A stretch of 64,000 bases of DNA. Origin: Myxococcaceae bacterium (GTDB taxonomy: Bacteria; Myxococcota; Myxococcia; Myxococcales; Myxococcaceae). The stretch is taken from contig JAIBBQ010000004.1 of the NCBI GenBank assembly GCA_019694595.1, forward strand, positions 1 to 64,000. Reading direction: 5' to 3'. The notes under the pieces are model-generated. The model saw only the letters and a list, made by a program, of their open reading frames with translations. It made no database searches and was not told where the DNA came from. Both the position numbers and the translations under genes were made by a program. Below, one piece after another: positions 5,858-63,818 of this stretch (positions within the stretch are counted from its first letter, which is position 1; each line of letters opens with the position of its first letter).

Positions 5858-7309
5858 ATGACGGGTGTGGCGAGCGACGACGGCAACGTGGTGCACGGGG
5901 TGAACGCGGCGGCGCTGAAGCGCATTCACCTGGTGGGCGTGGCGGGCACCGGCATGGGCAGCTTCGCCGGCATGCTCAAGGCGAAGGGCTACGAGGTGAC
6001 GGGGAGCGACGAGAACGTCTACCCGCCGATGAGCGACATGCTGAAGGCGTGGGGCATCCGCGCGCTGACGCCGTATGCGCCGTCGAACCTCGACGAGGCG
6101 AAGCCGGACCTGGTCATCATCGGCAACGTGATTCGCCGGGTGAACCCGGAAGCCACCGCGGTGCGGGAGCGCCGGCTGCCGCAGATGAGCTTCCCGGCGG
6201 CCTTCGGCGAGCTGGTGCTGGCCGGGCGGCACTCGGTGGTGGTGGCGGGCACGCACGGCAAGACGACGACGTCGGCGATGATGGCGCACGTGCTGGTGGA
6301 GGCGGGCAAGGACCCCAGCTTCCTGGTCGGCGGGGTGACGCAGAACTACGCGGGCAACTACCGGGTGGGGCAGGGGCCGCACGTGGTGGTGGAAGGCGAC
6401 GAGTACGACACCGCGTACTTCGACAAGGGCCCCAAGTTTCTCCACTACCAGCCGCGCACGGTCATCTTGACCAGCGTGGAGTTCGACCACGCGGACATCT
6501 ACCGGGACCTGCCGCACTACGAGTCGTCCTTCGCCAAGCTGGTGGCGCTGGTGCCGGCCGGCGGCGTGCTCGCGGTGTCGGCGCAGTGGCCGAACGCGGT
6601 GGGACTGGCGCGCGCCGGGAAGGCGAAGGTCGTCACCTACGGCGAAGGCGGCGAGGTGCGGGCCGAAGGGCTGCGTTTCTCCGAAGCCGGGGCGCACTTC
6701 ACGCTGGTCGCGAGCGGCGTGCGCGAGGACCTCTCGCTGCCGATGGCGGGCCGGCACAACGTGGAGAACGCGCTGGGCGTCTGCGCGGCGGGGCTGTCCC
6801 TGGGCCTGACGCCCGCGGAGCTGCGCGCGGGCCTGGCGACGTTCCGCGGGGTGAAGCGGCGCCAGGAAATCCGCGGAGAGGTCCGCGGTGTGCTGGTGCT
6901 GGACGACTTCGCGCACCACCCGACGGCGGTGAAGGAGACGGTGAGCGCGGTGAAGGCGCGGTGGCCGAACCGGCGGCTGTGGGCGGTGTTCGAGCCGCGC
7001 AGCAACACCAGCCGGCGCAACATCCACCAGGAGCCCTACGCGCACGCGTTCACCGGGGCCGCGAGGGTGTCGCTGCGGGTGCCGGAGAAGCACGACAAGA
7101 TTCCCGAAGGCGAAGGGCTCGACGTGCCGCGGCTGGTGAAGGACCTCCAGGCGCAGGGCTTCGAGGCGTCGGGCGACGCGTCGGTGGAGGCGCTGGTGGC
7201 GGAGGTGGCGTCGGGCGCGAAGTCGGGCGACCTGGTGCTGGTGATGAGCAACGGGGCCTTCGGGGGCTTCATCGACAAGCTCCTGGCGGCGCTGGGGAAG
7301 GCGCCGTGA
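5858..7309 (+). CDS. mpl: UDP-N-acetylmuramate:L-Ala-gamma-D-Glu-meso-DAP ligase
   Basis: Cytoplasmic Mur-ligase-family enzyme that attaches recycled tripeptide to UDP-MurNAc, a salvage route into peptidoglycan synthesis. Features seen over 483 residues: N-terminal Rossmann motif IHLVGVAGTGMGSFAG, ATP-binding P-loop AGTHGKTTTSAM (about residues 130-141), the EGDEYDTAYFD motif characteristic of Mpl, and C-terminal DDFAHHPTAV and EPRSNTSRR boxes. EGDEYDTAYFD together with SFAGMLKAKGYEVTGSD separates it from MurC. The ATG at 5858 gives the expected N-terminus. The stop overlaps the start of the thioredoxin-like lipoprotein gene by four bases (GTGA). Confidence 0.93.
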   Translation: MTGVASDDGNVVHGVNAAALKRIHLVGVAGTGMGSFAGMLKAKGYEVTGSDENVYPPMSDMLKAWGIRALTPYAPSNLDEAKPDLVIIGNVIRRVNPEATAVRERRLPQMSFPAAFGELVLAGRHSVVVAGTHGKTTTSAMMAHVLVEAGKDPSFLVGGVTQNYAGNYRVGQGPHVVVEGDEYDTAYFDKGPKFLHYQPRTVILTSVEFDHADIYRDLPHYESSFAKLVALVPAGGVLAVSAQWPNAVGLARAGKAKVVTYGEGGEVRAEGLRFSEAGAHFTLVASGVREDLSLPMAGRHNVENALGVCAAGLSLGLTPAELRAGLATFRGVKRRQEIRGEVRGVLVLDDFAHHPTAVKETVSAVKARWPNRRLWAVFEPRSNTSRRNIHQEPYAHAFTGAARVSLRVPEKHDKIPEGEGLDVPRLVKDLQAQGFEASGDASVEALVAEVASGAKSGDLVLVMSNGAFGGFIDKLLAALGKAP

Positions 7310-15498: not shown

Positions 15499-15736
15499 GG
15501 GTCGAGGTTTCAACACCAGAAGGGGGCCCCTGCAAGCCACGAGAGGGGGCTGTCGGAGGGTGTGGGAGGGGGCGCACGGGGCGCTGTTCGACCCGGGACC
15601 GGGGGCAGCGGCGGCGGCGCTCCGCCTCGGCCGGGGGCGCTCCTCATCGCGGCAAAGGCATGGGGAGGGGGGCCTTCAAAGACCGACGCTCGAATGGCCC
15701 CACGCCAGAGCCCGGGCGGGGGCGACTTTTTCAACT
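15499..15736. other. intergenic region upstream of the GltE-like gene
   Basis: GC-rich spacer with G-runs (GAGGGGGC, GGGAGGGGG). No gene and no convincing promoter were seen. It probably holds the promoter of the leftward GltE-F-G block and ends at the hairpin element that starts at 15737. Confidence 0.4.
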
Positions 15737-15950
15737 ACACCAAACATGAGACCAACGATGCTATTAAAATGCATCAATTCTTGCGCGTATAAGCTCAGGT
15801 TTGGTGTCACAAGAACCAGGTCCCGCCCGGCCCTCATCCCGCTCCAGCACGACCTGGCGCCCTGGCTCGGCCTGATTCTTGAAGCCGCGTCCTTCAGTGC
15901 GCCGCTGCGTCCGCGTCCTCTGCTGCGTGGCCTCGTGGATTCCTCGTTCT
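15737..15950. repeat. dispersed structured element, copy A (71-nt hairpin plus conserved tail)
   Basis: Positions 15737-15807 form an imperfect hairpin of exactly 71 nt. The arms begin ACACCAAAC and end GTTTGGTGT and pair over 13 of 14 positions. An AT-rich centre contains a smaller GATGC/GCATC hairpin (15757-15775). A conserved tail of about 140 bases follows, including CCTGGCTCGGCCTG and CGTCCTCTGCTGCG. The same element recurs at 63605-63813. The AT content of the core is strikingly unlike its surroundings. Strand is undetermined; it may be a small RNA, a MITE-like mobile repeat or a regulatory leader. Confidence 0.75.
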
Positions 15951-15992: not shown

Positions 15993-16682
15993 ATGACCCT
16001 CAGCCGGCGCGACATGCTCCTCACCCTCTCCGTCGCCCCCGCCGCGCTCGCGGCCGATGGAGGGACTGCTGCACCTCCCGCGGCCCGCGCCCTCAAGCCG
16101 CTCCCCTTCGACCCCGCGAAGCTCCCCGGCCTCTCCGAGCGCCTCCTCGTCTCCCACCACGAGAACAACTACGGCGGCGCCCTCAAGAACCTCTCCAAGG
16201 TCGAGGCCGAGCTCGCCCGCGTCACCAAGGACACGCCGGGTTTCCTCGTCGCGGGCCTGAAGGAGCGGGAGCTCACCTTCCGCAACTCGGTGGCGCTCCA
16301 CGAGGCCTACTTCGCCAACCTCGGCGGCGACGGCAAGGCGTCCGGCGCGCTGGAGAAGGCGCTCGCCAGGACCTTCGGCTCCTTCGCCCGCTTCGAGGAG
16401 CTCTTCCGCGCCTGCGCCCTCGCCCTGTCCGGCGGAAGCGGATGGACCGTGCTGTCCTTCCACCCCGAGCGGCAGGAGCTCACCATCGACTGGAGCGGCC
16501 ACCACACCCAGTCGCTCTCCGGCGCGGCGCCGCTGCTGGTGCTCGACCTCTACGAGCACGCCTACGCGCTCGACTACGGCGCCGCCGCCGCGCGGTACGT
16601 CGACGCCTTCATGGCCAACGTGCGCTGGGACGACGCCGAGCGCCGCTACGCGCGGTGGAGCGCGAAGTCAGCCCGCGAGTAG
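15993..16682 (+). CDS. Tat-exported Fe/Mn superoxide dismutase
   Basis: Iron/manganese superoxide dismutase, 229 residues including a twin-arginine leader (LSRRDMLLTLSVAPAALA), so it should be exported folded to the periplasm. Metal ligands are visible: His55/56 in SHHENNYGG, His103 in LHEAYF, and Asp185 and His189 in LDLYEHAYALDYG. The HENNYGG and LHEAYF variants mark an atypical branch that replaces the classical HxxxHH and HxNH boxes, so metal preference is uncertain. The gene starts 43 bases after repeat copy A, whose tail could overlap its promoter. Its end overlaps the convergent chromate transporter gene by 15 bases. Confidence 0.88.
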   Translation: MTLSRRDMLLTLSVAPAALAADGGTAAPPAARALKPLPFDPAKLPGLSERLLVSHHENNYGGALKNLSKVEAELARVTKDTPGFLVAGLKERELTFRNSVALHEAYFANLGGDGKASGALEKALARTFGSFARFEELFRACALALSGGSGWTVLSFHPERQELTIDWSGHHTQSLSGAAPLLVLDLYEHAYALDYGAAAARYVDAFMANVRWDDAERRYARWSAKSARE

Positions 16683-18008
16683 CCGCGCCGCGAGCCCGCC
16701 CGCCGAGCAGCCCGCCAGCACCCAGCCCACGCCGACCCTGGTGCGCAGCACCAGCACCAGCGCCACCGCGCAGAGCACCGCCGCCGGCCACTGCACCGTC
16801 GCGAGCTCCGGCCACGGCAGCCTCACCGGGCCCAGCGCGCGCTCGCCCACCTGCGCGAAGAGGGTGTGCAGCGCGAACCACAGCGACAGCTGGGCGATGA
16901 CGCCCACCACCGCCGCGGTGATGAGCCCCAGCGCCCCGCGCAGGCGCACGTTGCCCCGGAGCGCTTCCACCCACGGCGCTCCCGCGAGGATCCACAGGAA
17001 GCACGGCACGAACGTCGCCCACAGCGTCACCGCCGCGCCCAGCGCCCCCGCCCCGAAGGGCGACAGCCCGCCCGGGTGCTGGTGCGCGCTCAGGAACCCC
17101 ACGAACTCCAGCACCAGGATGAGCGGCCCCGGCGTCGTCTCCGCCAGCCCCAGGCCGTCGACCATCTGCTGCGGGGACAGCCAGCCCAGCTCCACCACCT
17201 GGTGCGCGATGAAGCCCAGCACCGCGTACGCCCCGCCGAAGGTCACCACCGCCGCCTCGGAGAACAGCCGCGCCTCCTTGGCCCACAGGCTCTCCGGGCC
17301 CAGCGCCCACGCCACGCCGAGGAGCGGGAGGGCCCACAGCGCGAGCCCAACCGCGAAGGTCGCCACCGTGCGGCGCCACGAGGGCCGCGCGTGGGCGAGC
17401 TCCCCGCGCGCCTCCATCGCGTCGATGAGCGTGGGCACCGCCGTTGCCGCCGCCGCCGCGCCGCCCTGGCCCGCGGCCCGTGCGCCGAGCACCGCGCCCA
17501 GGAGCCCCGTCGCCAGCACCACCGCCGGGTAGGGCACCTGGAAGGCGAGCAGCGCCACGAAGGACGCGCCCGCCACTGCCCAGTGCACCGGGCCCTTGAG
17601 CGCGCGCTTCGCCACCCGCGCCACCGCGTGCACCACCAGCGCCACCACCGCCGCCTTGAGCCCGAGGAAGAGCGCCTCCACCAGGAACGAGCGGTGGAAC
17701 GCGCCGTAGAGCGCGCTCAGGGCCAGCATCACCAGCGCCCCGGGGAGCACGAAGAGGCCGCCCGCCACCAGCGCGCCCGGCAGCCGGTGCATCAGGAAGC
17801 CCACGTACGTCGCCAGCTGCATCGCCTCCGGCCCGGGCAAGAGCGTGCAGAAGGACAGCGCGTGCAGGAAGCGCGCGTCGGAGATCCACCGGCGGCGGTC
17901 CACCAGCTCGCCGTGCATCAGCGCGATCTGCCCCGCGGGCCCGCCGAACGACAGGAGCCCGATGCGCAGCCACACCCGGCTCGCCGCGCGCAGGGAGATG
18001 GGCTCCAT
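16668..18008 (-). CDS. chrA: chromate transporter, CHR family (ChrA), two-domain
   Basis: A 446-residue inner-membrane protein with ten or more hydrophobic segments. Both duplicated CHR halves are present. The first has LSFGGPAGQIALMHGELVD and LLPGPEAMQLATYVGFLMH; the second has VTFGGAYAVLGFIAHQVVE and ETTPGPLILVLEFVGFL. Family members expel chromate by proton-coupled export, though many homologues are untested. It lies three bases after the small hypothetical gene, which itself follows the GltD-like gene by nine bases, so all three may be one transcript. Its 3' end overlaps the superoxide dismutase gene; chromate reduction generates superoxide, so the pairing may be functional. Confidence 0.92.
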   Translation of the reverse strand: MEPISLRAASRVWLRIGLLSFGGPAGQIALMHGELVDRRRWISDARFLHALSFCTLLPGPEAMQLATYVGFLMHRLPGALVAGGLFVLPGALVMLALSALYGAFHRSFLVEALFLGLKAAVVALVVHAVARVAKRALKGPVHWAVAGASFVALLAFQVPYPAVVLATGLLGAVLGARAAGQGGAAAAATAVPTLIDAMEARGELAHARPSWRRTVATFAVGLALWALPLLGVAWALGPESLWAKEARLFSEAAVVTFGGAYAVLGFIAHQVVELGWLSPQQMVDGLGLAETTPGPLILVLEFVGFLSAHQHPGGLSPFGAGALGAAVTLWATFVPCFLWILAGAPWVEALRGNVRLRGALGLITAAVVGVIAQLSLWFALHTLFAQVGERALGPVRLPWPELATVQWPAAVLCAVALVLVLRTRVGVGWVLAGCSAGGLAARLLAG

Positions 18009-46984: not shown

Positions 46985-47526
46985 GCGTTAACGCAGCGCT
47001 GCTCCGACTCGTAGATGGACGACCAAGAGAGTTGTTTCGCCCATGGATCTGTCAGCCTGCGACACACGTCCTCACGCATGTTCTCAGTGCCAGCGCAGGC
47101 GTTCAGACAATCGTTGAGGTTGGGCGGCTTCCGTCTGCCGCCGCACATTGCAGGTTCCCGTGAAGGCCCGGGCGTGTACCTGGGAGTGTCATCGCCCCCG
47201 AGGGGAGAGGGCCACAACAGGCCAATCACGCCACCAGCAGCCCCAACGCCTCTCAGGATGCCACTGCCAAGCCCCCCACCGACGTCCTTGCCGAGCTCAG
47301 CCAAAGCTCGTTCTGCAGCATCAATCACGGCGCCGCTTGGATACCGACCGTCACGGTCAATTCGGTTGATCGGATCGTTGCTCGCATAGGCGTACGGCAA
47401 CGTTTGCCGCCCCAACTCCGCCATGCCCGCGACGTACGCAGGCTTCTGCAGCATGGGTTCTGGGGAGAGGTACCTTCCGGTGGAGGGGTCGTAGAAGCGG
47501 TTCCAGTTCTCGTGGCTAGTCGCCTG
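46954..47526 (-). pseudogene. displaced (orphan) Rhs C-terminal tip
   Basis: This open frame of 190 codons begins after an in-frame TAG (47529-47527) and immediately enters Rhs core sequence, HENWNRFYDPSTGRYLSPEP. It continues through PYAYASNDPINRIDRDG, the end of the Rhs shell, into a unique tail of about 125 residues with six cysteines (NDCLNACAGTENMREDVCRR). It has no Rhs N-terminus. The only good internal start is ATG at 47454. It is a stored toxin tip rather than a full gene, related to the parent at 48755-48784 by an exact 30-base repeat. The immunity-like gene follows. The toxin activity is not recognisable. Confidence 0.8.
47486..47515. repeat. 30-bp direct repeat, orphan-tip copy
   Basis: Identical over all 30 bases to 48755-48784 inside the parent Rhs gene, in the same orientation and reading frame (it encodes HENWNRFYDP). 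Similarity to the parent ceases immediately upstream, marking the junction where the tip could be joined to the parent by homologous recombination. Confidence 0.9.
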
Positions 47527-48304
47527 CTACAACCTCATGCGGCAGAACCTCCTGAATCCCCTCCAGCACCTCCTGGACCGAACATTCCGGCCCGACTCCT
47601 CCGCGAGTCGCAACGGGGGCTGGAGGCACCGGAGCAAAGAGCGAGGGGCCATCTGGAACGGGTTGCGCGTGCACTACACTCTCGCGGCAACGCAGGACTA
47701 GAGCGACCAGCGGCTCTGTGCACTGCATCGCGTCACGTCCCATGCTGCGAAGGTCAGCGACACTTCGGGCAATCACCGAATCAAGGGTTCGCGTGCGAGC
47801 TGAGCTGGCGCGAGCTGGTTGAGCTCGCGCGGAGCAGATGGTCGCAGATCGCCCCGCAACGATAGCTGTCACTCTTCGATCCCCCGAGGGGGAACCAGGG
47901 GCCGCGCCACGCCAAACGACAGAGCAGTCGAGGAGTTCGGGTGTCTGTTGTGCAGACAAGTGCCCTATCCCGCGGACGATAACCAGTTGCCCAACGGACG
48001 CAAGTCGGTTGCCTGCCGCCTCGGGCTCGCCCTCAGCGCGCAATGTCAGTCGGCATCGCACGGCAATCGGGGGCGATGTCGTGCCCAAGTCCAATTGCTT
48101 GGCGGCAACATCAGCTGCCACGACGACTCCCACCACATCGATAGGCTTCTCGCGATGCAACCGATCGGCTCGGCTCTTCCCGTTGACCTGTAATCGAAGA
48201 AACTCGGAGGCAGAAACTGGTGCTGTGGAGACTTGGGCCAACGACTGGGTCGCACACCCTAAGACTGAAAGGAGCAGCACCGCAGAAACTGCCATGGATT
48301 TCAT
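47516..48304 (-). CDS. OB-fold-like lipoprotein coupled to the Rhs gene
   Basis: A 262-residue lipoprotein: signal peptide with lipobox SVLGC (acylated cysteine residue 17). It then has a segment resembling tRNA_anti-like OB-folds (PIDVVGVVVAADVAAKQLDL, ASVGQLVIVRGIGHL). The C-terminal 110 residues are Arg/Ala/Pro-rich and poorly structured. Its ATG overlaps the Rhs stop (ATGA), so it is made with the Rhs protein and is the natural candidate for its immunity or chaperone partner, acting in the periplasm. The stop lies inside the start of the orphan tip, so its C-terminus may have been altered when that tip arrived. Confidence 0.75.
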   Translation of the reverse strand: MKSMAVSAVLLLSVLGCATQSLAQVSTAPVSASEFLRLQVNGKSRADRLHREKPIDVVGVVVAADVAAKQLDLGTTSPPIAVRCRLTLRAEGEPEAAGNRLASVGQLVIVRGIGHLSAQQTPELLDCSVVWRGAAPGSPSGDRRVTAIVAGRSATICSARAQPARASSARTRTLDSVIARSVADLRSMGRDAMQCTEPLVALVLRCRESVVHAQPVPDGPSLFAPVPPAPVATRGGVGPECSVQEVLEGIQEVLPHEVVAGD

Positions 48305-51300
48305 ATGCCCACGCCCGTCTTGCCAAGGTCACATTTGTCGACGCATCGAATTCGGTAATACTTGATCGTCGGCGAATGCGGGTCGACGCAGGTAAGCCCA
48401 CGCTTGTCCACGTCCTTGCACTGAAGAACTAGGCAGGCATAAATCTCGGCGATACCGCTAGGGCAGTCACTCGCCGGCACCAAACCCGAACTACATTCCT
48501 TGACGATCGAGCCCGGAGCGAGCCCAGTAGCGTCTGTTTCGTTGACTGGATTATTCCGAGCGTACGCGTACGGTAACAAGGGCATGATCGAGGCGAGCTG
48601 AGGAGGCTGCGATCGCCGGTCCGGAAATTCAGGTAGATCTAGCAGCCGAACAGGCGGGCCGCTCTTGAGCCTCCTCAACGCCCCATCGAGAATCGCGGCT
48701 ACAGAAGGACCTTGTAGCAGCATGGGCTCAGGAGAGAGGTACCGGCCTGTCTGAGGGTCGTAGAAGCGGTTCCAGTTCTCGTGGAGCCCGGTCTCCTCGT
48801 CGAAGTATTGACCCGGAAAACGGACAGGAGGCCACCATGGGGTGGCGCCGGCCTCATACCGCTGAAACTGGTATCCCGACATTGCGACGCCCCAGTGGGT
48901 CGCAGCAACGTTGCCGCAAAACAGGCCGGCAATCTGCTCATGAGTCGAGTTGCTGACCCAGCTCACGCCAAAGCTCGATGCGACCGGATACCACGGGGTC
49001 CACAACGCCCTGAGGCCAGAGGTGCTGCTGTTGTAGAGGGGCGAGACTTGGGTTCCGGGGAACGCACCGGTGTAGATGGCGGCGCCATCGAAGTTGCCAG
49101 CTCCCGGACACTTCGGGTCGGTATCCAGCGATGAGAGATTGACCCGGACACTCATGTTCAAGCCCACCTTGGCGGGCGTGAGTTCGACGAGAGAGAAGTT
49201 CTGGTTGTTCGCGTACGGGTGACCCGTCTGGGTCCAGAACTCCACGCGATTCACGTTCCCAAGCGGGTCGTACTCGCCCGTGCCGGTCAGGCGACCAACT
49301 CCGTCGATCGCGACAAGCGGCTTCGGGAGATAGTCGTTCACGAGAAACACGAGACCACAGGGTTGTGACACGTCATTGCGGGTGCAGGTGGTCGAGTAGG
49401 CGTCATTCGTCCTCGCCCAGGACGTGTTCGTGGTGCTCTTCCAAACGGCGACGGCCTTGCCATCGAGCCAGATGTACTCGTCGATCGTGTAGCCCGTCGC
49501 AGTCGACAAGGAGCGGTTGCCGCGGTCCTCGAGGAGCTGATGACCTTGGTCGTAATAGTACTCATCGCTCACCGCTCCGTAGGCAGCGCTGTAGGCCTTC
49601 TGCCGGCGGCGGCTCCGAGCGTCATAGTAGTACTGGTAGCTGACCCCGTTCACGTTCACATTTCGGTACACAGAGTCCGAACCCGGGGTCGTGGTCAGGT
49701 AGCCGAACGACTGGGAGAAGCTCGGTGCCGATGTCGAGTCAACCAGGCCCTTCTTCGTCAAGGTCCGACCGTCGGTGTCGTAGGTGAATGTCGCTCCAAC
49801 TGTCTGAGGCAGGGCGCCCGAAGTCCAACTTGCGAGCTGATCCTGGCGCGGCGCACCGAGATACGAGGCGAAATATCCAGCGCCCCAAGGGTCTACGTAA
49901 CGTGTCGTCCGGTTGCTCCGGGCATCGAAGACGAAGTAGTTCGAGTAGCCCCAGCCACCGCTCGTGGAGAAATTGTCGACGTACCCCGAGACGTTTCTCT
50001 GGACTCCGTCGTAGCCCGGATACTGGGCCGCGAATGCCCCGATTCCGTACTCCTCAATCTGTGGCGTCCCGAAGTTCTTTATCGTGGTGCTCGTCTGACC
50101 CACGAGTTCGCCCTTCCAGAGATAGGTGCGCTTGTAGATGTCGCCGCTGCCAGAGGAGGTGGAAACGAATAGCGATCCAGGCCGGCCGGTAAAGTCGTGG
50201 CCTGCGGTTGGAGTTTGGCCGAGCCCGTATTCGACCTTCAGATTTCCGCTCTGAATCAGTGGTTGGTACGAGCGAAGTCCTCCGTACGGTTCCCAAGTCG
50301 CGTTTGACAAGAGAGTGACGGTCCCCAGTCCCCACGTCGTCGAAGTGACTGATGCGACTCGATCGCGAAGGCTGAGATCGCTGTTGTACACGTACGAAAC
50401 GAGCCTCCCGTGTGGATACTTCACTGAACTGAGGTTGCCGTTTCCGGTGTACGTGAAGCTTGTCACTGTAGGACTTTCTGCCCCCGCGATACATGCCGTC
50501 TCGCCCCTGGTCGTGGCGTCGAGGACGACATTCCCCACATGATCGTAGGCAAAGTAGTGAGCTCCGATGGCATCGCTTTCGCTGACCAGCCGTCCCTTTT
50601 GGTTGAGGTCGGTTGGTGCACCGCAGCTGGACGGGAAAGCGATTGCCGGCGATACGACGGCATCCCAAGTCTTTGAAACCACCGTTGTGACCACCGAGCC
50701 GTTGACGCTGTCCTGACGCAGCATTCGTCCCAACTGGTCATAGCTGTACTCCCAACGCGTATTGGCCAGAGTCATCTCGGGAGTCCTGCGAGTGATAACA
50801 TTGCCCATCGCATCGTATTGGTACTCGAAGCTTCCTCGATTCGCGCCGGAACCCGAGTTTGACGCAGTCACAAGGACGACATTGCCGAAGTCGTCGGTGG
50901 AGTAGTCGATGGGTGAACTGTCACAACTGGACAATGCACCAGGGGTCGCGCACGTTGCCGTCGTTGCACAGCCACTGCTGACCCGGGTCACGTTTCCGTT
51001 GGAGTCGTGATCAAGGCAGCTTCGAATCGCGTTGGACGTCGTCAGAGTGGGGAAGTCGTCGAGAACGGCAAGGCGATTTGCTCCGTCCCACTGCATCTGG
51101 GCGCATAGCGGCGACAGGTTACCGCTGCCATCGAGGCAAAAGGGAGGAGAGGACGCGAACGACTTTCCGAGGGCGCGGAGGTTGTCGGTGGCGTCGAAGC
51201 CGCGTGGAATCGAGTAGGCGAACCCACTGCCTCCGTCGCCGAATGCATCCCACGTCGGACGTCGCTCAGAATCCACGGCATGCCACATCAGTCGCCGTGC

Positions 51301-53670
51301 TCCGTCCGCTGCAGTCTCGAACGACTCGGACCTCACCGTCCCGTCAGGCCAGTAGGAGTAGCGAATTCCTTCCTTCCATACCGTACCAAGTGCATCAGCC
51401 GACCGAGCCTTCCAAGCGACAAGCTTCGACAGAGGCGCAGATGTCGAACAAGTCCCGATCGCTGGCCCTGCGCCGCCGGTGACGCCTCGATTGCAGTACG
51501 ACTCAAAATTGCCGTCCGGGAGTTGGACCGAGCGAAGAAATGGCCCGTCATACGTGTAGTTCCAGACCAGGGTAGGAAATGTTGCTTTTGCGACCGTGCG
51601 CTGGGTGACCTGATGAGGCCCCGCGTTGTATTGGAGAGTCGTGGTCGTTCCGTTGGCGTCGACAATGGTCGTCGGGTCGCCCAAGTCATTATATGCAGTG
51701 TATTGGGTTGTCAGTGCCGCGACTGGCGGCGGAGACGAAGAGCAACCACCAGGGAAGCGCGAAATCGTCGCGATCCGGTTCGCTTTCTGGTCCAGTCCAC
51801 TGCCGTGGTACGTGATCTCAGTCACCGGGTAGCTTGCTCCGATGCACTGGCTGCCATTGGACTCGCAAGGGCCCTCGATTCGAACGACGCGCCCGAGTGG
51901 GTCGTTCGTGTAGGGGGCCGTGCAGACGCGAGCAATCTTGTAGAAGGTGCTGATCCTCTTTGGGACGATCGCGCCGCCAAAAATCCTGGTGAATCCGAGC
52001 TTTTCCGACTGGATGAGTTGGCCGTTCGTGTTGTCGTAAGTGTAGGTGTCGACGGAAGCATCCGGAGCAAGGAGTGAGCGGCGGGATACGGATGCAACGT
52101 GTTGGACGCCAAAGTTGTCGTACACGTAGCTGATGTCCTCGCGCTCGATCGCATCGACCCCGGCATCCGTGGTTGCGCCACGCATCCTCGCCCGTGTCTC
52201 CCAAGTTTCGACGCTCTGACCTGCTGGAATCGAAAAATAGCGATCGAACAGGTCGTAGTACCCGCGACGGTTCCGCACGCCTCTCTGATACTTTCGCGTA
52301 GACGTAGAAGTGCAGACGAAGTCTGACCTGTCGTTCGCGGCCCAAATCAGCTCTTTGACTCCGGGGCTGCACGAGTTGGCGACGCTGCATCCAAACTGTT
52401 GAAAGTAGGGTTCGCTGCCATGTGCGCTCTGGAACTTTGCTGAAATGAACGCGGTCTTCACAGAGAAGTTTGTGGCTCCCGGTTGCCCGTCGCCTCTCCC
52501 TGCATACATGTCTGTGCTCGTCGTCGAGTAAGGGGCGGGTTGGTTCGTTTCTTTGCTGCACTGAGGGACGGCGGGAACAATGGGATCGTCGTCGGCAATT
52601 TGCAGATACTCGGTCGTTCCCTGTGTGGCCGTTGCGGTTGGACCGGAGCTCGACAGCGGGTAAGTGGTCGTTTCGCTACCTCGCACCACCTGAAACTGGT
52701 TGGTTGCATATGAGTATGTCTCGGTTTCGAGTCCACCGACCGAACTGACGATCTTTCCAGTCCGTTCAACGCCAGAACTCGAGTCGTAGGTGTACACAAC
52801 CAGGGTGCGACTCCCACCGGTCCACTGTAAATCCACCTGCCGAAGAACGCAGGCCTGCGAAACGAGCGCACCGGCGAAGGTTGCTAGAGTCGCATAACTG
52901 AACTTCAGCCAGGTGCCGCCCTGCAACGTCACCTTGTCGATGTAGGGTGCTCCGTTCGCAGCACTTCCTGGGCAGTTGGCGCCTCCCGGCATCGTTGGGG
53001 TTGCGTACGAAACGTCAAAGCGCTTCTCGCCGTTGGCGTTGTAGGCGGAGGTCAGAAAGTACGCGGGGGAGGCAAGTGCTGCCCCCGCGATGTTGTTGGT
53101 GATCTGCGCTGTGTAGACCCGCCTGACGCTCTTGTCGTCGATCCACTCGTAGCCGCTCCCGGTCCACTTGATGCGATCGGGGATTGACGGCGAATCGACG
53201 TGGCGGGCTACCCACGTGTTGGGTGCAGTCGAAGCCAGAGAGAAATCGACGACAGAGGCGCCGGGCGCCAGCACCAGGAGCGACCCACCGGAGCCGTATT
53301 GGTTGTTTCCCCGGACGAAGGAAAAGAAGTTGTGGGTCCAGAAGGTCCCTTGGTCGGTTCTTCCAAATGGCGTGGCCAGGTCGTCAACGATTCCGTTCTG
53401 CCCCATCGTTGCGGCCTGCGATTGATAGGTGCGGAAAAACTCAACGGTGCCCGTGGCCGTGTTGATGTCGGCTTCCTTCGTTCTGTGGAAGACCGCTCGA
53501 GTCAGAAGATTGACCGGGTCCCCCGCGACGAAACCGCCGCAGCACTTGAAGTCGTTGCACCGGGGTGGGTTCTGGTTGCCCGGACAGACGGGCTGTGAGG
53601 CCTCAACGAAGGGTGCGAGGCACAGAGTCCCCACGAGCGCTGCCGCGAACCCGCTACGAATCGTTGTCAT
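48301..53670 (-). CDS. Rhs/YD-repeat polymorphic toxin-like protein with Sec signal
   Basis: A 1789-residue protein. A signal peptide (SGFAAALVGTLCLAPFVEA) is followed by a Cys-rich patch and the Rhs-type N-domain (AGDPVNLLTRAVFHRT, TVEFFRTYQSQ). Long YD-repeat shell sequence follows (YDQLGRML, YDAMGNVI, YDHVGNVV, YDPLGNVN), then the shell end HENWNRFYDPQTGRYLSPEP and PYAYARNNPVNETDATGL. The variable tip of about 70 residues has seven cysteines. Such shells encapsulate a cleaved C-terminal toxin. The Sec signal rather than a PAAR domain means export through the general pathway, not T6SS. Both neighbours overlap it by four bases. Confidence 0.92.
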   Translation of the reverse strand: MTTIRSGFAAALVGTLCLAPFVEASQPVCPGNQNPPRCNDFKCCGGFVAGDPVNLLTRAVFHRTKEADINTATGTVEFFRTYQSQAATMGQNGIVDDLATPFGRTDQGTFWTHNFFSFVRGNNQYGSGGSLLVLAPGASVVDFSLASTAPNTWVARHVDSPSIPDRIKWTGSGYEWIDDKSVRRVYTAQITNNIAGAALASPAYFLTSAYNANGEKRFDVSYATPTMPGGANCPGSAANGAPYIDKVTLQGGTWLKFSYATLATFAGALVSQACVLRQVDLQWTGGSRTLVVYTYDSSSGVERTGKIVSSVGGLETETYSYATNQFQVVRGSETTTYPLSSSGPTATATQGTTEYLQIADDDPIVPAVPQCSKETNQPAPYSTTSTDMYAGRGDGQPGATNFSVKTAFISAKFQSAHGSEPYFQQFGCSVANSCSPGVKELIWAANDRSDFVCTSTSTRKYQRGVRNRRGYYDLFDRYFSIPAGQSVETWETRARMRGATTDAGVDAIEREDISYVYDNFGVQHVASVSRRSLLAPDASVDTYTYDNTNGQLIQSEKLGFTRIFGGAIVPKRISTFYKIARVCTAPYTNDPLGRVVRIEGPCESNGSQCIGASYPVTEITYHGSGLDQKANRIATISRFPGGCSSSPPPVAALTTQYTAYNDLGDPTTIVDANGTTTTLQYNAGPHQVTQRTVAKATFPTLVWNYTYDGPFLRSVQLPDGNFESYCNRGVTGGAGPAIGTCSTSAPLSKLVAWKARSADALGTVWKEGIRYSYWPDGTVRSESFETAADGARRLMWHAVDSERRPTWDAFGDGGSGFAYSIPRGFDATDNLRALGKSFASSPPFCLDGSGNLSPLCAQMQWDGANRLAVLDDFPTLTTSNAIRSCLDHDSNGNVTRVSSGCATTATCATPGALSSCDSSPIDYSTDDFGNVVLVTASNSGSGANRGSFEYQYDAMGNVITRRTPEMTLANTRWEYSYDQLGRMLRQDSVNGSVVTTVVSKTWDAVVSPAIAFPSSCGAPTDLNQKGRLVSESDAIGAHYFAYDHVGNVVLDATTRGETACIAGAESPTVTSFTYTGNGNLSSVKYPHGRLVSYVYNSDLSLRDRVASVTSTTWGLGTVTLLSNATWEPYGGLRSYQPLIQSGNLKVEYGLGQTPTAGHDFTGRPGSLFVSTSSGSGDIYKRTYLWKGELVGQTSTTIKNFGTPQIEEYGIGAFAAQYPGYDGVQRNVSGYVDNFSTSGGWGYSNYFVFDARSNRTTRYVDPWGAGYFASYLGAPRQDQLASWTSGALPQTVGATFTYDTDGRTLTKKGLVDSTSAPSFSQSFGYLTTTPGSDSVYRNVNVNGVSYQYYYDARSRRRQKAYSAAYGAVSDEYYYDQGHQLLEDRGNRSLSTATGYTIDEYIWLDGKAVAVWKSTTNTSWARTNDAYSTTCTRNDVSQPCGLVFLVNDYLPKPLVAIDGVGRLTGTGEYDPLGNVNRVEFWTQTGHPYANNQNFSLVELTPAKVGLNMSVRVNLSSLDTDPKCPGAGNFDGAAIYTGAFPGTQVSPLYNSSTSGLRALWTPWYPVASSFGVSWVSNSTHEQIAGLFCGNVAATHWGVAMSGYQFQRYEAGATPWWPPVRFPGQYFDEETGLHENWNRFYDPQTGRYLSPEPMLLQGPSVAAILDGALRRLKSGPPVRLLDLPEFPDRRSQPPQLASIMPLLPYAYARNNPVNETDATGLAPGSIVKECSSGLVPASDCPSGIAEIYACLVLQCKDVDKRGLTCVDPHSPTIKYYRIRCVDKCDLGKTGVGI
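48755..48784. repeat. 30-bp direct repeat, parent Rhs copy
   Basis: Exact partner of 47486-47515. Recombination between the two would delete the 1269-base interval between them, removing the current tip and the OB-fold-like lipoprotein and fusing the Rhs shell in frame to the orphan tip. Confidence 0.9.
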
Positions 53671-54461
53671 TGGAAGCTCACCAGTTTCTTGGGCGCCTTT
53701 CCGGGCGCCGTGATTACAAAGAGTCCAGTCTTGCCTTGAACCAAGATTTCCCCTGATGGGGTTCGCCGAATGTGGGAGTCGCCGACGGGCTCCGTGACCT
53801 CGCCCCACTCGACGTCTCCACGTTTCGTGGGCACGACGATCTTGAGTTTGGCGTAGTCGCGACGAACCACCGCCCGCCCAGCCGACGCTTCGGTGAACGA
53901 GTCGAGAGCAGCGTCTGGAGCCGTCAGGTCAGACTCAACGGCGGGTGAAGACCCCACGTCGAGCTTTCCAACCCTGAAGTGGCCACGGCAGTCAGCATGG
54001 AGGAAGTAGAGATGCTCTCCCTGCCAAGAATAGGGGCCGAGGTGACAGCCGGGAGTCCCGGACAACCTGGTCGCTGGTCCGCCGTTCCAGGACACGCGCC
54101 AGACCTGAGACCAATCCATGACATGTTTCACTTCAACTGGTCGCTCTTGATGGTTGAAGTACACCGAGCCGTCCGGGGCAATGAAGGGGTGACGAATCAG
54201 CCCGCCGTCACTCACCAGTTCCCGAGCTTCGCCGCCGGGCGACCAGGCCAGGAGGTGGAGTCGATCTTCCGAAATCAGAGCGAACTTCTTGCCGTCGTCC
54301 GAAACCGCGACCTCATGCGCTCGGTGTCCGCCGAAGTCGGTGTGGCGTGACACCTCTTTCCCGAAGTCGTTGGTGACGACCCAGAGCTCAGGCGTACCCC
54401 AGGCGTAGTGATGAGCTGGCACTGCCGAAACGATGGCAGTCAGCAGGGCTTCCGCGACCAC
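53667..54461 (-). CDS. exported beta-propeller-like protein
   Basis: A 264-residue protein with a signal peptide (VAEALLTAIVSAVPAHHYA). Its repeated blades are of the TolB/WD40-like type: AVSDDGKKFALISEDRLHLL, FIAPDGSVYFNHQE, YSWQGEHLYFLHAD, RTPSGEILVQGKTGLF. The GTG start overlaps the stop of the upstream lipoprotein gene by one base, and its stop overlaps the Rhs ATG by four (ATGA). Propellers usually bind proteins or glycans, so a role in presenting or escorting the Rhs protein in the periplasm is likely but inferred. No catalytic residues are evident. Confidence 0.78.
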   Translation of the reverse strand: MVAEALLTAIVSAVPAHHYAWGTPELWVVTNDFGKEVSRHTDFGGHRAHEVAVSDDGKKFALISEDRLHLLAWSPGGEARELVSDGGLIRHPFIAPDGSVYFNHQERPVEVKHVMDWSQVWRVSWNGGPATRLSGTPGCHLGPYSWQGEHLYFLHADCRGHFRVGKLDVGSSPAVESDLTAPDAALDSFTEASAGRAVVRRDYAKLKIVVPTKRGDVEWGEVTEPVGDSHIRRTPSGEILVQGKTGLFVITAPGKAPKKLVSFQ

Positions 54462-62571: not shown

Positions 62572-63420
62572 TCAGCGGGACTCGGCCCGCCGCTCGACGA
62601 GGAAGCGGGGGAGCAGCAGGTTCCAGGGCTGGTCGTAGCTGTAGGTGGGCTCGCCGCGCTTGCGACGGGGCTCGAGGGCGGCGGCGGGGTCGCGGTCGCT
62701 GCGATCCCAGGGGACGGGCGTGGCGGGGCGGAAGCGCTGCAGGGCCTCGACGTGGCGCGTGGTGGGGCGGAACTCGGGGTGGGTGGAGAGGAAGAAGCCG
62801 ACGCGCAGCGCGGTGATGGCGCTGTCGAGGCGCAGGGTGTGGCGGACCATGGCGTCGTGGTCGAGCGTGCGGCCGTGCTCGAGCCAGAAGCGCCAGAGGG
62901 TGGGCAGCTCGGGGCCCAGGCGCGGGCGGTCGAGGACGTCGACGAACGTGCGCTCCATCGTGGTGACGCGGACGGGCTGGCCGTCGCGGAGCAAGGTCTG
63001 GACGCCGAAGCCGTCGTCGGCGCGGCGCTGGAGCGCCTCGGGGATCCACGCGGGGATGAAGGTGGCGCCGCTTGGCCGGTCGCTGAAGCGCTTGGGGGTG
63101 CGCTGGCGGGAGGTCCAGGTGACGAGGCCCTCGTCGTCGACGAGGTCGTGCACCGCGAAGGCGCTCAGGTAGGCGACGGCGGCGTCGGGGGCGAGGTGGC
63201 TGGCGAGGACATACGGGTCGGTGGTGGTGGTGTAGCGGCCGCGGTGCACCTGGCGCAGGCCGTTCTTTCCGAGGTGGTAGCGCAGGAGCGAGAGGGCGGA
63301 GACGTGGCTGCGCTTGCGGCCGCGACCGTGGGCCTCGGCGAAGTCGGCGACGGTGAAGACGGGGTGGGCGGCGATCCACTCCGCGGCGTCGAAGGGGGCA
63401 GTGGCTTTCTTTCGGCTCAT
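62572..63420 (-). CDS. orphan AbiEi-type antitoxin-like protein
   Basis: A 282-residue protein resembling AbiEi antitoxins. An N-terminal winged-helix-like region (HPVFTVADFAEAHGRG, LLRYHLGKNGLRQVHRGRY) is followed by a domain with VAYLSAFAVHDLVDDEG, VTTMERTFVDVLDRPRLG and a C-terminal basic tail. AbiEi proteins repress their own operon and counter AbiEii nucleotidyltransferase toxins. No AbiEii gene is adjacent: the next gene downstream is convergent. It may therefore be a solitary transcription factor or a remnant. The spacer upstream (63421-63604) shows no other gene. Confidence 0.72.
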   Translation of the reverse strand: MSRKKATAPFDAAEWIAAHPVFTVADFAEAHGRGRKRSHVSALSLLRYHLGKNGLRQVHRGRYTTTTDPYVLASHLAPDAAVAYLSAFAVHDLVDDEGLVTWTSRQRTPKRFSDRPSGATFIPAWIPEALQRRADDGFGVQTLLRDGQPVRVTTMERTFVDVLDRPRLGPELPTLWRFWLEHGRTLDHDAMVRHTLRLDSAITALRVGFFLSTHPEFRPTTRHVEALQRFRPATPVPWDRSDRDPAAALEPRRKRGEPTYSYDQPWNLLLPRFLVERRAESR

Positions 63421-63604
63421 GGCGTGACTCCGGTGCGGCGTCGCGACGCGGTGCTGGCGAGGAAGCCCTGGGCGTCGCGCGAAGGCGGGAGGAGGGGGTG
63501 GGGTGAAACCAGGGCGGGTGTGCCGGGGGCGCGTCCGGCGCTCCCGCGACCGGAGAGGCCTGGCTGGCGTTCAGGAGGGGAGGCCAGGGGCAGGTTTTTG
63601 AGCG
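63421..63604. other. intergenic region upstream of the AbiEi-like gene
   Basis: A 184-base GC-rich spacer with G-runs (GAGGAGGGGGTGGGGTG). No gene is seen. It probably contains the AbiEi promoter and, by analogy with AbiE systems, could contain operator repeats, but none was identified. It ends in TTTTTG at the start of repeat copy B. Confidence 0.4.
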
Positions 63605-63813
63605 ACACCAAACATGAGACCATCAATGCAATAAAAGCACATCTTTTATTGCAAGTAAGCGCTCAAGTTTGGTGTAACCAAAAAACCAAGTCCGGCCGGG
63701 GAGGCTTCCCCGTTCCAGCGGGCCCGAATTTCCTGGCTCGGCCTGCTTCTTGAAACTTCGCTCATCGGTGCGCGCCGTTCCCGCGTCGTCTGCTGCGCTG
63801 CCGAGCGGAATCC
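63605..63813. repeat. dispersed structured element, copy B (71-nt hairpin plus conserved tail)
   Basis: Positions 63605-63675 form a 71-nt hairpin with the same arms as copy A (ACACCAAAC ... GTTTGGTGT). In its centre lies a perfect 11-bp inner stem, TGCAATAAAAG (63627-63637) and CTTTTATTGCA (63643-63653). The tail to about 63813 shares CCTGGCTCGGCCTG, TTCTTGAA and CTGCTGCG blocks with copy A in the same order. The core is AT-rich. The element ends next to the stop codon of the thermonuclease gene, on whose 3' side it sits. Confidence 0.75.
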
Positions 63814-63818
63814 CGACC

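Follow-up and report, generated by a model that had tools for sequence, protein, structure and literature searches.

A family of mosaic intergenic repeats with a long AT-cored quasi-palindrome in a Myxococcaceae genome

Two related elements in the window

The window analysed here, a 64,000-nt stretch of DNA from a Myxococcaceae bacterium, contains two related non-coding elements, copies A and B, which are separated by 47,868 bp and display 74 % identity over 102 nt and 72 % over 65 nt. The initial annotation described two loci about 48 kb apart that share a 71-nt hairpin, and this description holds: the hairpin core is of the same length in both (15737-15807 and 63605-63675), its arms, ACACCAAAC and GTTTGGTGT, are conserved, and an AT-rich centre is present in each. 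Copy B is moreover recovered by blast on its own with an E-value of 8e-23, placing its similarity to copy A above chance. The components of the two copies are as follows, with the strand of a whole element being that on which it reads from tail A into tail B.

15600-15946 (-): copy A, whole element (oriented alignment; tail A model match)
15712-15829 (+): copy A, outer quasi-palindrome of ~118 nt (covariance model, 114.7 bits; fold z -4.07)
15737-15807 (+): copy A, inner hairpin core of 71 nt, ACACCAAAC...GTTTGGTGT (alignment)
15839-15946 (-): copy A, tail A, GAGGAATCC...CGCAGCAG...GGCCGAGCCAGG (model R2, E-value 1e-18; fold z +0.82)
15600-15711 (-): copy A, tail B of the C302/C329 subtype (alignment; 85 % match to C302)
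63434-63815 (-): copy B, whole element (oriented alignment)
63580-63699 (+): copy B, outer quasi-palindrome (covariance model, 123.8 bits; fold z -8.00)
63605-63675 (+): copy B, inner hairpin core of 71 nt (locally perfect inverted repeat GCAATAAAA/TTTTATTGC)
63710-63814 (-): copy B, tail A (model R2 match, E-value 2e-20)
63434-63579 (-): copy B, divergent tail B (alignment of oriented copies)

Copy A thus has tail A at its high end and tail B, which includes GCCTTTGCCGCGATGAGG at 15642-15659, at its low end, where the boundary is fuzzy and perhaps lies at ~15588. Its core is in the P orientation on the + strand, opposite to its tails; the core of copy B likewise has the P orientation on the + strand. 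Whilst the hairpin and tail A had been recognised in the initial annotation, the second conserved arm beyond the hairpin, tail B, had been overlooked.

Copy A sits between two divergent gene starts. Approximately 47 bp past it begins a gene (15993-16682, +) for a Sod_Fe_C protein (E-value 5e-24) with an apparent twin-arginine-like N-terminus, which is adjoined by a chromate transporter gene (16668-18008, -). Copy B must lie in the upstream region of the gene at 62572-63420 (-), the start codon of which is ~14 bp from the edge of the element; its 282-aa product, for which Pfam gives no match, by eye resembles AbiEi-type antitoxin-like proteins. Elsewhere in the window, an ORF at 48301-53808 (-) encodes an RHS-repeat protein of 1835 aa (Pfam RHS_repeat), and its 3'-terminal core segment is duplicated ~1.27 kb downstream (47448-47515 versus 48717-48784, 85 % over 68 nt), with the second segment looking like a displaced or orphan RHS tip.

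Size and layout of the family

The genome to which the window belongs (7.28 Mb in 394 contigs, 99 % complete) is the sole member of its genus amongst those searched. Within it, the 214-base query matched copy B and further places, and queries built from C293 and C329 recovered C81, C11 and C329. A covariance model of the hairpin returned exactly nine loci, each above 114 bits, with no others to an E-value of 10: copies A and B (C164A and C164B, both on contig C164), C293, C302, C279, C86, C187, C99 and C81. Three remnants, C11, C329 and C22, have no palindrome, the last of these (C22:49394-49485) being added by the tail A model. The family therefore comprises 12 loci, nine with a hairpin and three without, and what had been presented as a two-copy element has further copies in the genome, the lack of which the initial annotation had named as a refuting outcome.

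All copies are non-coding, dispersed and intergenic. The unit consists of tail A (GAGGAATCCGCGCGGCGGCGCAGCAG ... GGCCGAGCCAGG), followed by an AT-cored quasi-palindrome of ~120 nt and then tail B, often GTCCGCCGCGGGAGCGGAGGACG followed by CCCCCTCCTCATGCCTTTGCCGCGATGAGG ... CCGNCGCCGC. In the window the unit measures ~340-380 bp, more than had been described; across the family whole copies span ~294-407 bp, and the hairpin-less C11 and C329 ~165 bp.

Distribution beyond this genome

The initial annotation proposed searching relatives with a covariance model; the hairpin model finds no copy in any of 194 further genomes from the phylum. Similarly, a DNA search with the hairpin across 145 genomes from the order recovers no copy, nor does a DNA search of 98 relatives recover any homologue, although only seven candidates were scored per genome in the latter, which is weak for the GC-rich tails. 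The tail A model produces only matches of 18-23 bits in 142 genomes of the order, and those inspected look unrelated. Pattern scans, of collections from which records of this genome itself may be missing, yield two matches in IMG/VR, neither of them a palindrome, and three in GTDB r220 contigs, which are in unrelated phyla and approximate the chance expectation. Rfam 15 contains no match over the gathering score, the best being chance hits to miRNA models far under the cut-off; a riboswitch or other known RNA was rejected on this basis, and the earlier view of a dispersed structured element matching nothing named is borne out. A search of the literature on such repeats in myxobacteria returned nothing. 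As far as the collections searched have shown, the family is private to one lineage.

Anatomy and folding of the quasi-palindrome

In the P orientation the alignment of all nine hairpins is gap-free across 120 nt, except that copy A is 2 nt short in its 3' outer arm; conservation of length, as originally noted, hence applies to the 71-nt core and not to the outer arm. Pairing reaches ~118-120 nt, beyond this core. From the outside inwards, the palindrome is composed of GC-rich arms, GGTTTTT/AAAAACC, spacers, the inner arms ACACCAAAC/GTTTGGTGT, a stretch in which pairing is partial and, at the centre, a conserved but poorly paired core, CATCAATGCAATAAAATGGCATCAATTCTTGC. The spacers between the outer and inner arms, of 4-6 nt on each side, are variable and unpaired, and within one copy the spacer words (A1 columns 22-25 and 97-100) pair worse than shuffles, 500 of 500 being at least as good. 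The centre had been described as variable and self-complementary; the variable part is in fact these unpaired spacers, whilst much of the centre (CATCAATGCAATAAAA) is amongst the most conserved sequence and is only partly paired.

When set against dinucleotide shuffles, the hairpins fold strongly (z -4.07 for copy A and -8.00 for copy B), and 85 % of cells in the dyad pair, versus 30-44 % in slid controls. The tails show no excess of folding (z +0.82 and -0.06, respectively), so that of the structured, conserved tail originally proposed only the conserved sequence blocks stand, tail A of copy A being conserved in sequence and unstructured. Covariation among the hairpin copies is weak: double-sided pair changes number seven, compared with 5.1 on average in column shuffles, 85 of 500 of which reach this count, and the covariation score is 0.147 versus 0.128 in column shuffles (43 of 500 as high). 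Within the inner arms, the wobble cells on the P strand are G-U in eight cases and A-C in none, which arises because the nine copies all carry an unchanged 3' arm, GTTTGGTGT; this contrast, with a basis of about five columns only, is a hint of strand-specific constraint. The 71-nt core is ungapped throughout, with invariant blocks and an identity of 64-84 % between copies.

Core inversion, spacer exchange and mosaic tails

Relative to the tails, the core is inverted in three of the nine copies. The core and tail models (R1 and R2) fall on the same strand in C293, C302 and C279, and on opposite strands in C164A, C164B, C86, C187, C99 and C81. Assignment of orientation is clear, as the two readings differ by 29-75 bits in at least eight of the nine copies (114.7 versus 47.7 for copy A). 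The three same-strand copies form a group in the tail A tree (support 0.955), and a single inversion of the core therefore suffices without repeated flipping, whilst the spacer swaps need more. C164A carries TTGTG next to tail A and CAACT next to tail B, and C86 and C81 show the converse arrangement with an identical core orientation. The tails are mosaic also, since the tail B of C164A is common to C302 (0.75), yet its tail A is nearest to the other subgroup. As in REPs and BIMEs, core orientation, spacers and tail subtypes are thus reassorted as modules.

Certain arms look homogenised, judging from their sequences. In copy B the inner 3' arm reads TTTTATTGC and complements GCAATAAAA perfectly, AATTCTTGC being found at this position in other copies; C302 and C279 harbour GGTCTC, complementary to GAGACC. 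Template switching between short inverted repeats is known to cause both homogenisation of arms and inversion of the segment between them, with inversion found only where arms exceed 9 bp (PMC8604942). As this process can keep arms complementary in the absence of selection, conserved pairing need not mean a selected structure. The initial annotation took the retention of pairing between copies A and B as the mark of such selection, a conclusion that we do not retain given the lack of excess covariation, the unstructured tail, the apparent homogenisation of arms and the inverted core. In C329, which has no palindrome, the ends meet as a perfect palindrome (GAGGCCGG|CCGGCCTC); such a junction is what deletion between the arms would leave, although it may instead be an older state that precedes gain of the hairpin.

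Genomic setting and signs of insertion

The neighbours of the 12 copies are unrelated genes with no shared class, and the elements are usually found just past stop codons. The position of copy A upstream of the superoxide dismutase gene, whilst real, is accordingly incidental. Tail A begins 3-9 nt past a stop codon in C293, C164B, C187, C279 and C329, and 22 and 39 nt past one in C11 and C302, respectively. In C99 the element starts 3 nt past the yqeY stop and fills most of the 437-nt gap between yqeY and dnaG, whilst in 29 relatives this gap measures 14-342 nt and contains no element; this empty-site comparison is of one copy with distant relatives. The repeat at C99 (L111), located at ~5971-6340, thereby separates yqeY from dnaG in the macromolecular synthesis operon, a housekeeping operon that now contains a palindromic element of ~370 bp.

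There are no terminal inverted repeats, as the ends, GAGGAATCC... and ...CCGNCGCCGC, share a short GC-rich partial match in which the variable bases are not complementary. Nor does a target-site duplication stand out above control, the longest flank match averaging 4.27 nt versus 4.35 nt in mismatched controls, with the right boundary being fuzzy; in MITEs such duplications may fade with age. A MITE bearing both features was accordingly not recovered. Neither a Y1/REP transposase (PF01797) nor a reverse transcriptase (PF00078) was found in the genome, whilst positive controls were detected; the search for mobilising enzymes covered these two families only, and no autonomous partner of the repeats emerged from it.

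Discussion

The observations for this family are dispersal to unrelated intergenic sites, mostly just past a stop codon, loss of the palindrome in three cases, inversion of the core, mosaic tails and absence from all relatives searched. We consider it probable that these are lineage-private, non-autonomous, mosaic intergenic repeats, of ~12 loci per 7.3 Mb, which are like MITEs or BIMEs in kind. Copies would have spread by transposition or in a copy-paste manner, using an inferred trans-acting enzyme that has perhaps since been lost. Once in place, the palindrome would be reshaped by replication template switching, leading to homogenisation of arms and inversion of the core, and may sometimes be deleted after insertion. 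The 3' ends of mRNAs may be affected as a by-product. Against this explanation count the lack of terminal inverted repeats, of a target-site duplication above control and of a Y1 transposase or reverse transcriptase, together with an empty-site comparison of one copy with distant relatives. The ungapped 71-nt core with its invariant blocks likewise counts against it, as it suggests constraint beyond passive drift; passive remodelling does not account fully for a core of constant length with such blocks, which leaves some room for readings as an RNA or as a binding site.

That the copies are small structured RNAs or mRNA 3'-end elements, with the P-strand hairpin transcribed and its fold under selection, appears unlikely. 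It would accommodate the strong hairpin (z -4.1 and -8.0), the fixed core length, the eight G-U wobbles of the inner arms with their invariant GTTTGGTGT, and the five copies with tail A 3-9 nt past a stop codon. Compensatory changes are, however, no commoner than in shuffles, the tails are unstructured, the G-U/A-C contrast involves only those five or so columns, and Rfam offers no match. In addition, copy A has no promoter or terminator by simple sigma-70 or intrinsic consensus, although this is a weak test for myxobacteria. Relative to the tails, moreover, the P strand runs in the sense direction in three copies and in the antisense direction in six, and thus no common transcript from the upstream genes could carry the hairpin. 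We regard as quite unlikely that the palindromes are sites for a host protein (a recombinase, nucleoid-associated protein or regulator), with their dispersal a by-product. An invariant core that is AT-rich although the genome is GC-rich, an invariant half-site (GTTTGGTGT), the absence of any partly decayed hairpin amongst nine copies, and spacers of 4-6 nt that are less complementary than shuffles, recalling crossover spacers, would all suit such a role; yet the family is absent from all relatives searched, which is unusual for a core chromosomal site, long conserved tails superfluous to a binding site flank it, and there is no shared gene class near the copies.

A hairpin substrate of known single-strand machinery (REP/RAYT, IS200/IS605, retron or integron attC) is highly improbable, despite the palindromic, intergenic, species-private and BIME-like mosaic character of the copies. 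Neither of the enzymes required by REP/RAYT, IS200/IS605 and retrons is detected in the 99 %-complete assembly, which refutes systems dependent on Y1 transposase or reverse transcriptase unless the enzyme lies in the ~1 % absent from the assembly or was lost, and there is no GTAG or GTGG head at the foot of the palindrome. The attC R-box has the consensus GTTRRRY, to which the arm GTTTGGT is mismatched by eye, and no cassette array is apparent near the copies. That the quasi-palindromic core is actively flipped at its own locus, across nested levels of arms, through a dedicated enzyme or hairpin-primed replication, with core, spacers and tails reassorting, is decidedly unlikely; if true, myxobacteria would harbour a novel type of mobile or recombination element that is carried on a hairpin.

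With non-autonomous mosaic repeats as the preferred reading, comparison with known systems reveals partial likeness to several. BIMEs and REPs are alike in being extragenic, palindromic, species-private, mosaic and often downstream of genes (PMC2817692), but REPs usually exceed 100 per genome, compared with ~12 copies here, and their palindromes are GC-rich and of 20-40 nt, in contrast to the AT-cored ~120 nt of this family, which also has no GTAG head and no RAYT/Y1 transposase in its genome. MITEs, including the ERIC and RUP types, are similarly small, non-coding, dispersed and intergenic, with an AT-rich centre and a strong hairpin (PMC10969869); in the present family the inverted repeat is central rather than terminal, neither terminal inverted repeats nor target-site duplications are found, and the enzyme families searched point to no parent insertion sequence. 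Unlike retrons (msr-msd), it has no reverse transcriptase in its own genome. Template-switched quasi-palindromes share its homogenisation of arms and inversion of the inter-arm segment, although the segment here is of ~50-70 bp and inferred among dispersed copies, whilst spacer inversions in yeast are of a few bp (PMC8604942). The family resembles BIMEs and MITEs but lacks defining features of each, and is therefore filed under neither; it is new to the collections searched, and we place it as a variant among the palindromic repeats of bacterial intergenic regions, broadly defined.

This bacterium thus possesses a private family of intergenic repeats that none of the relatives or public collections searched contains, and its nine aligned copies offer a direct view of how a long quasi-palindrome is inverted and its arms homogenised. 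The family also counsels caution, in that pairing conserved between two copies of a repeat need not signal a selected RNA structure.
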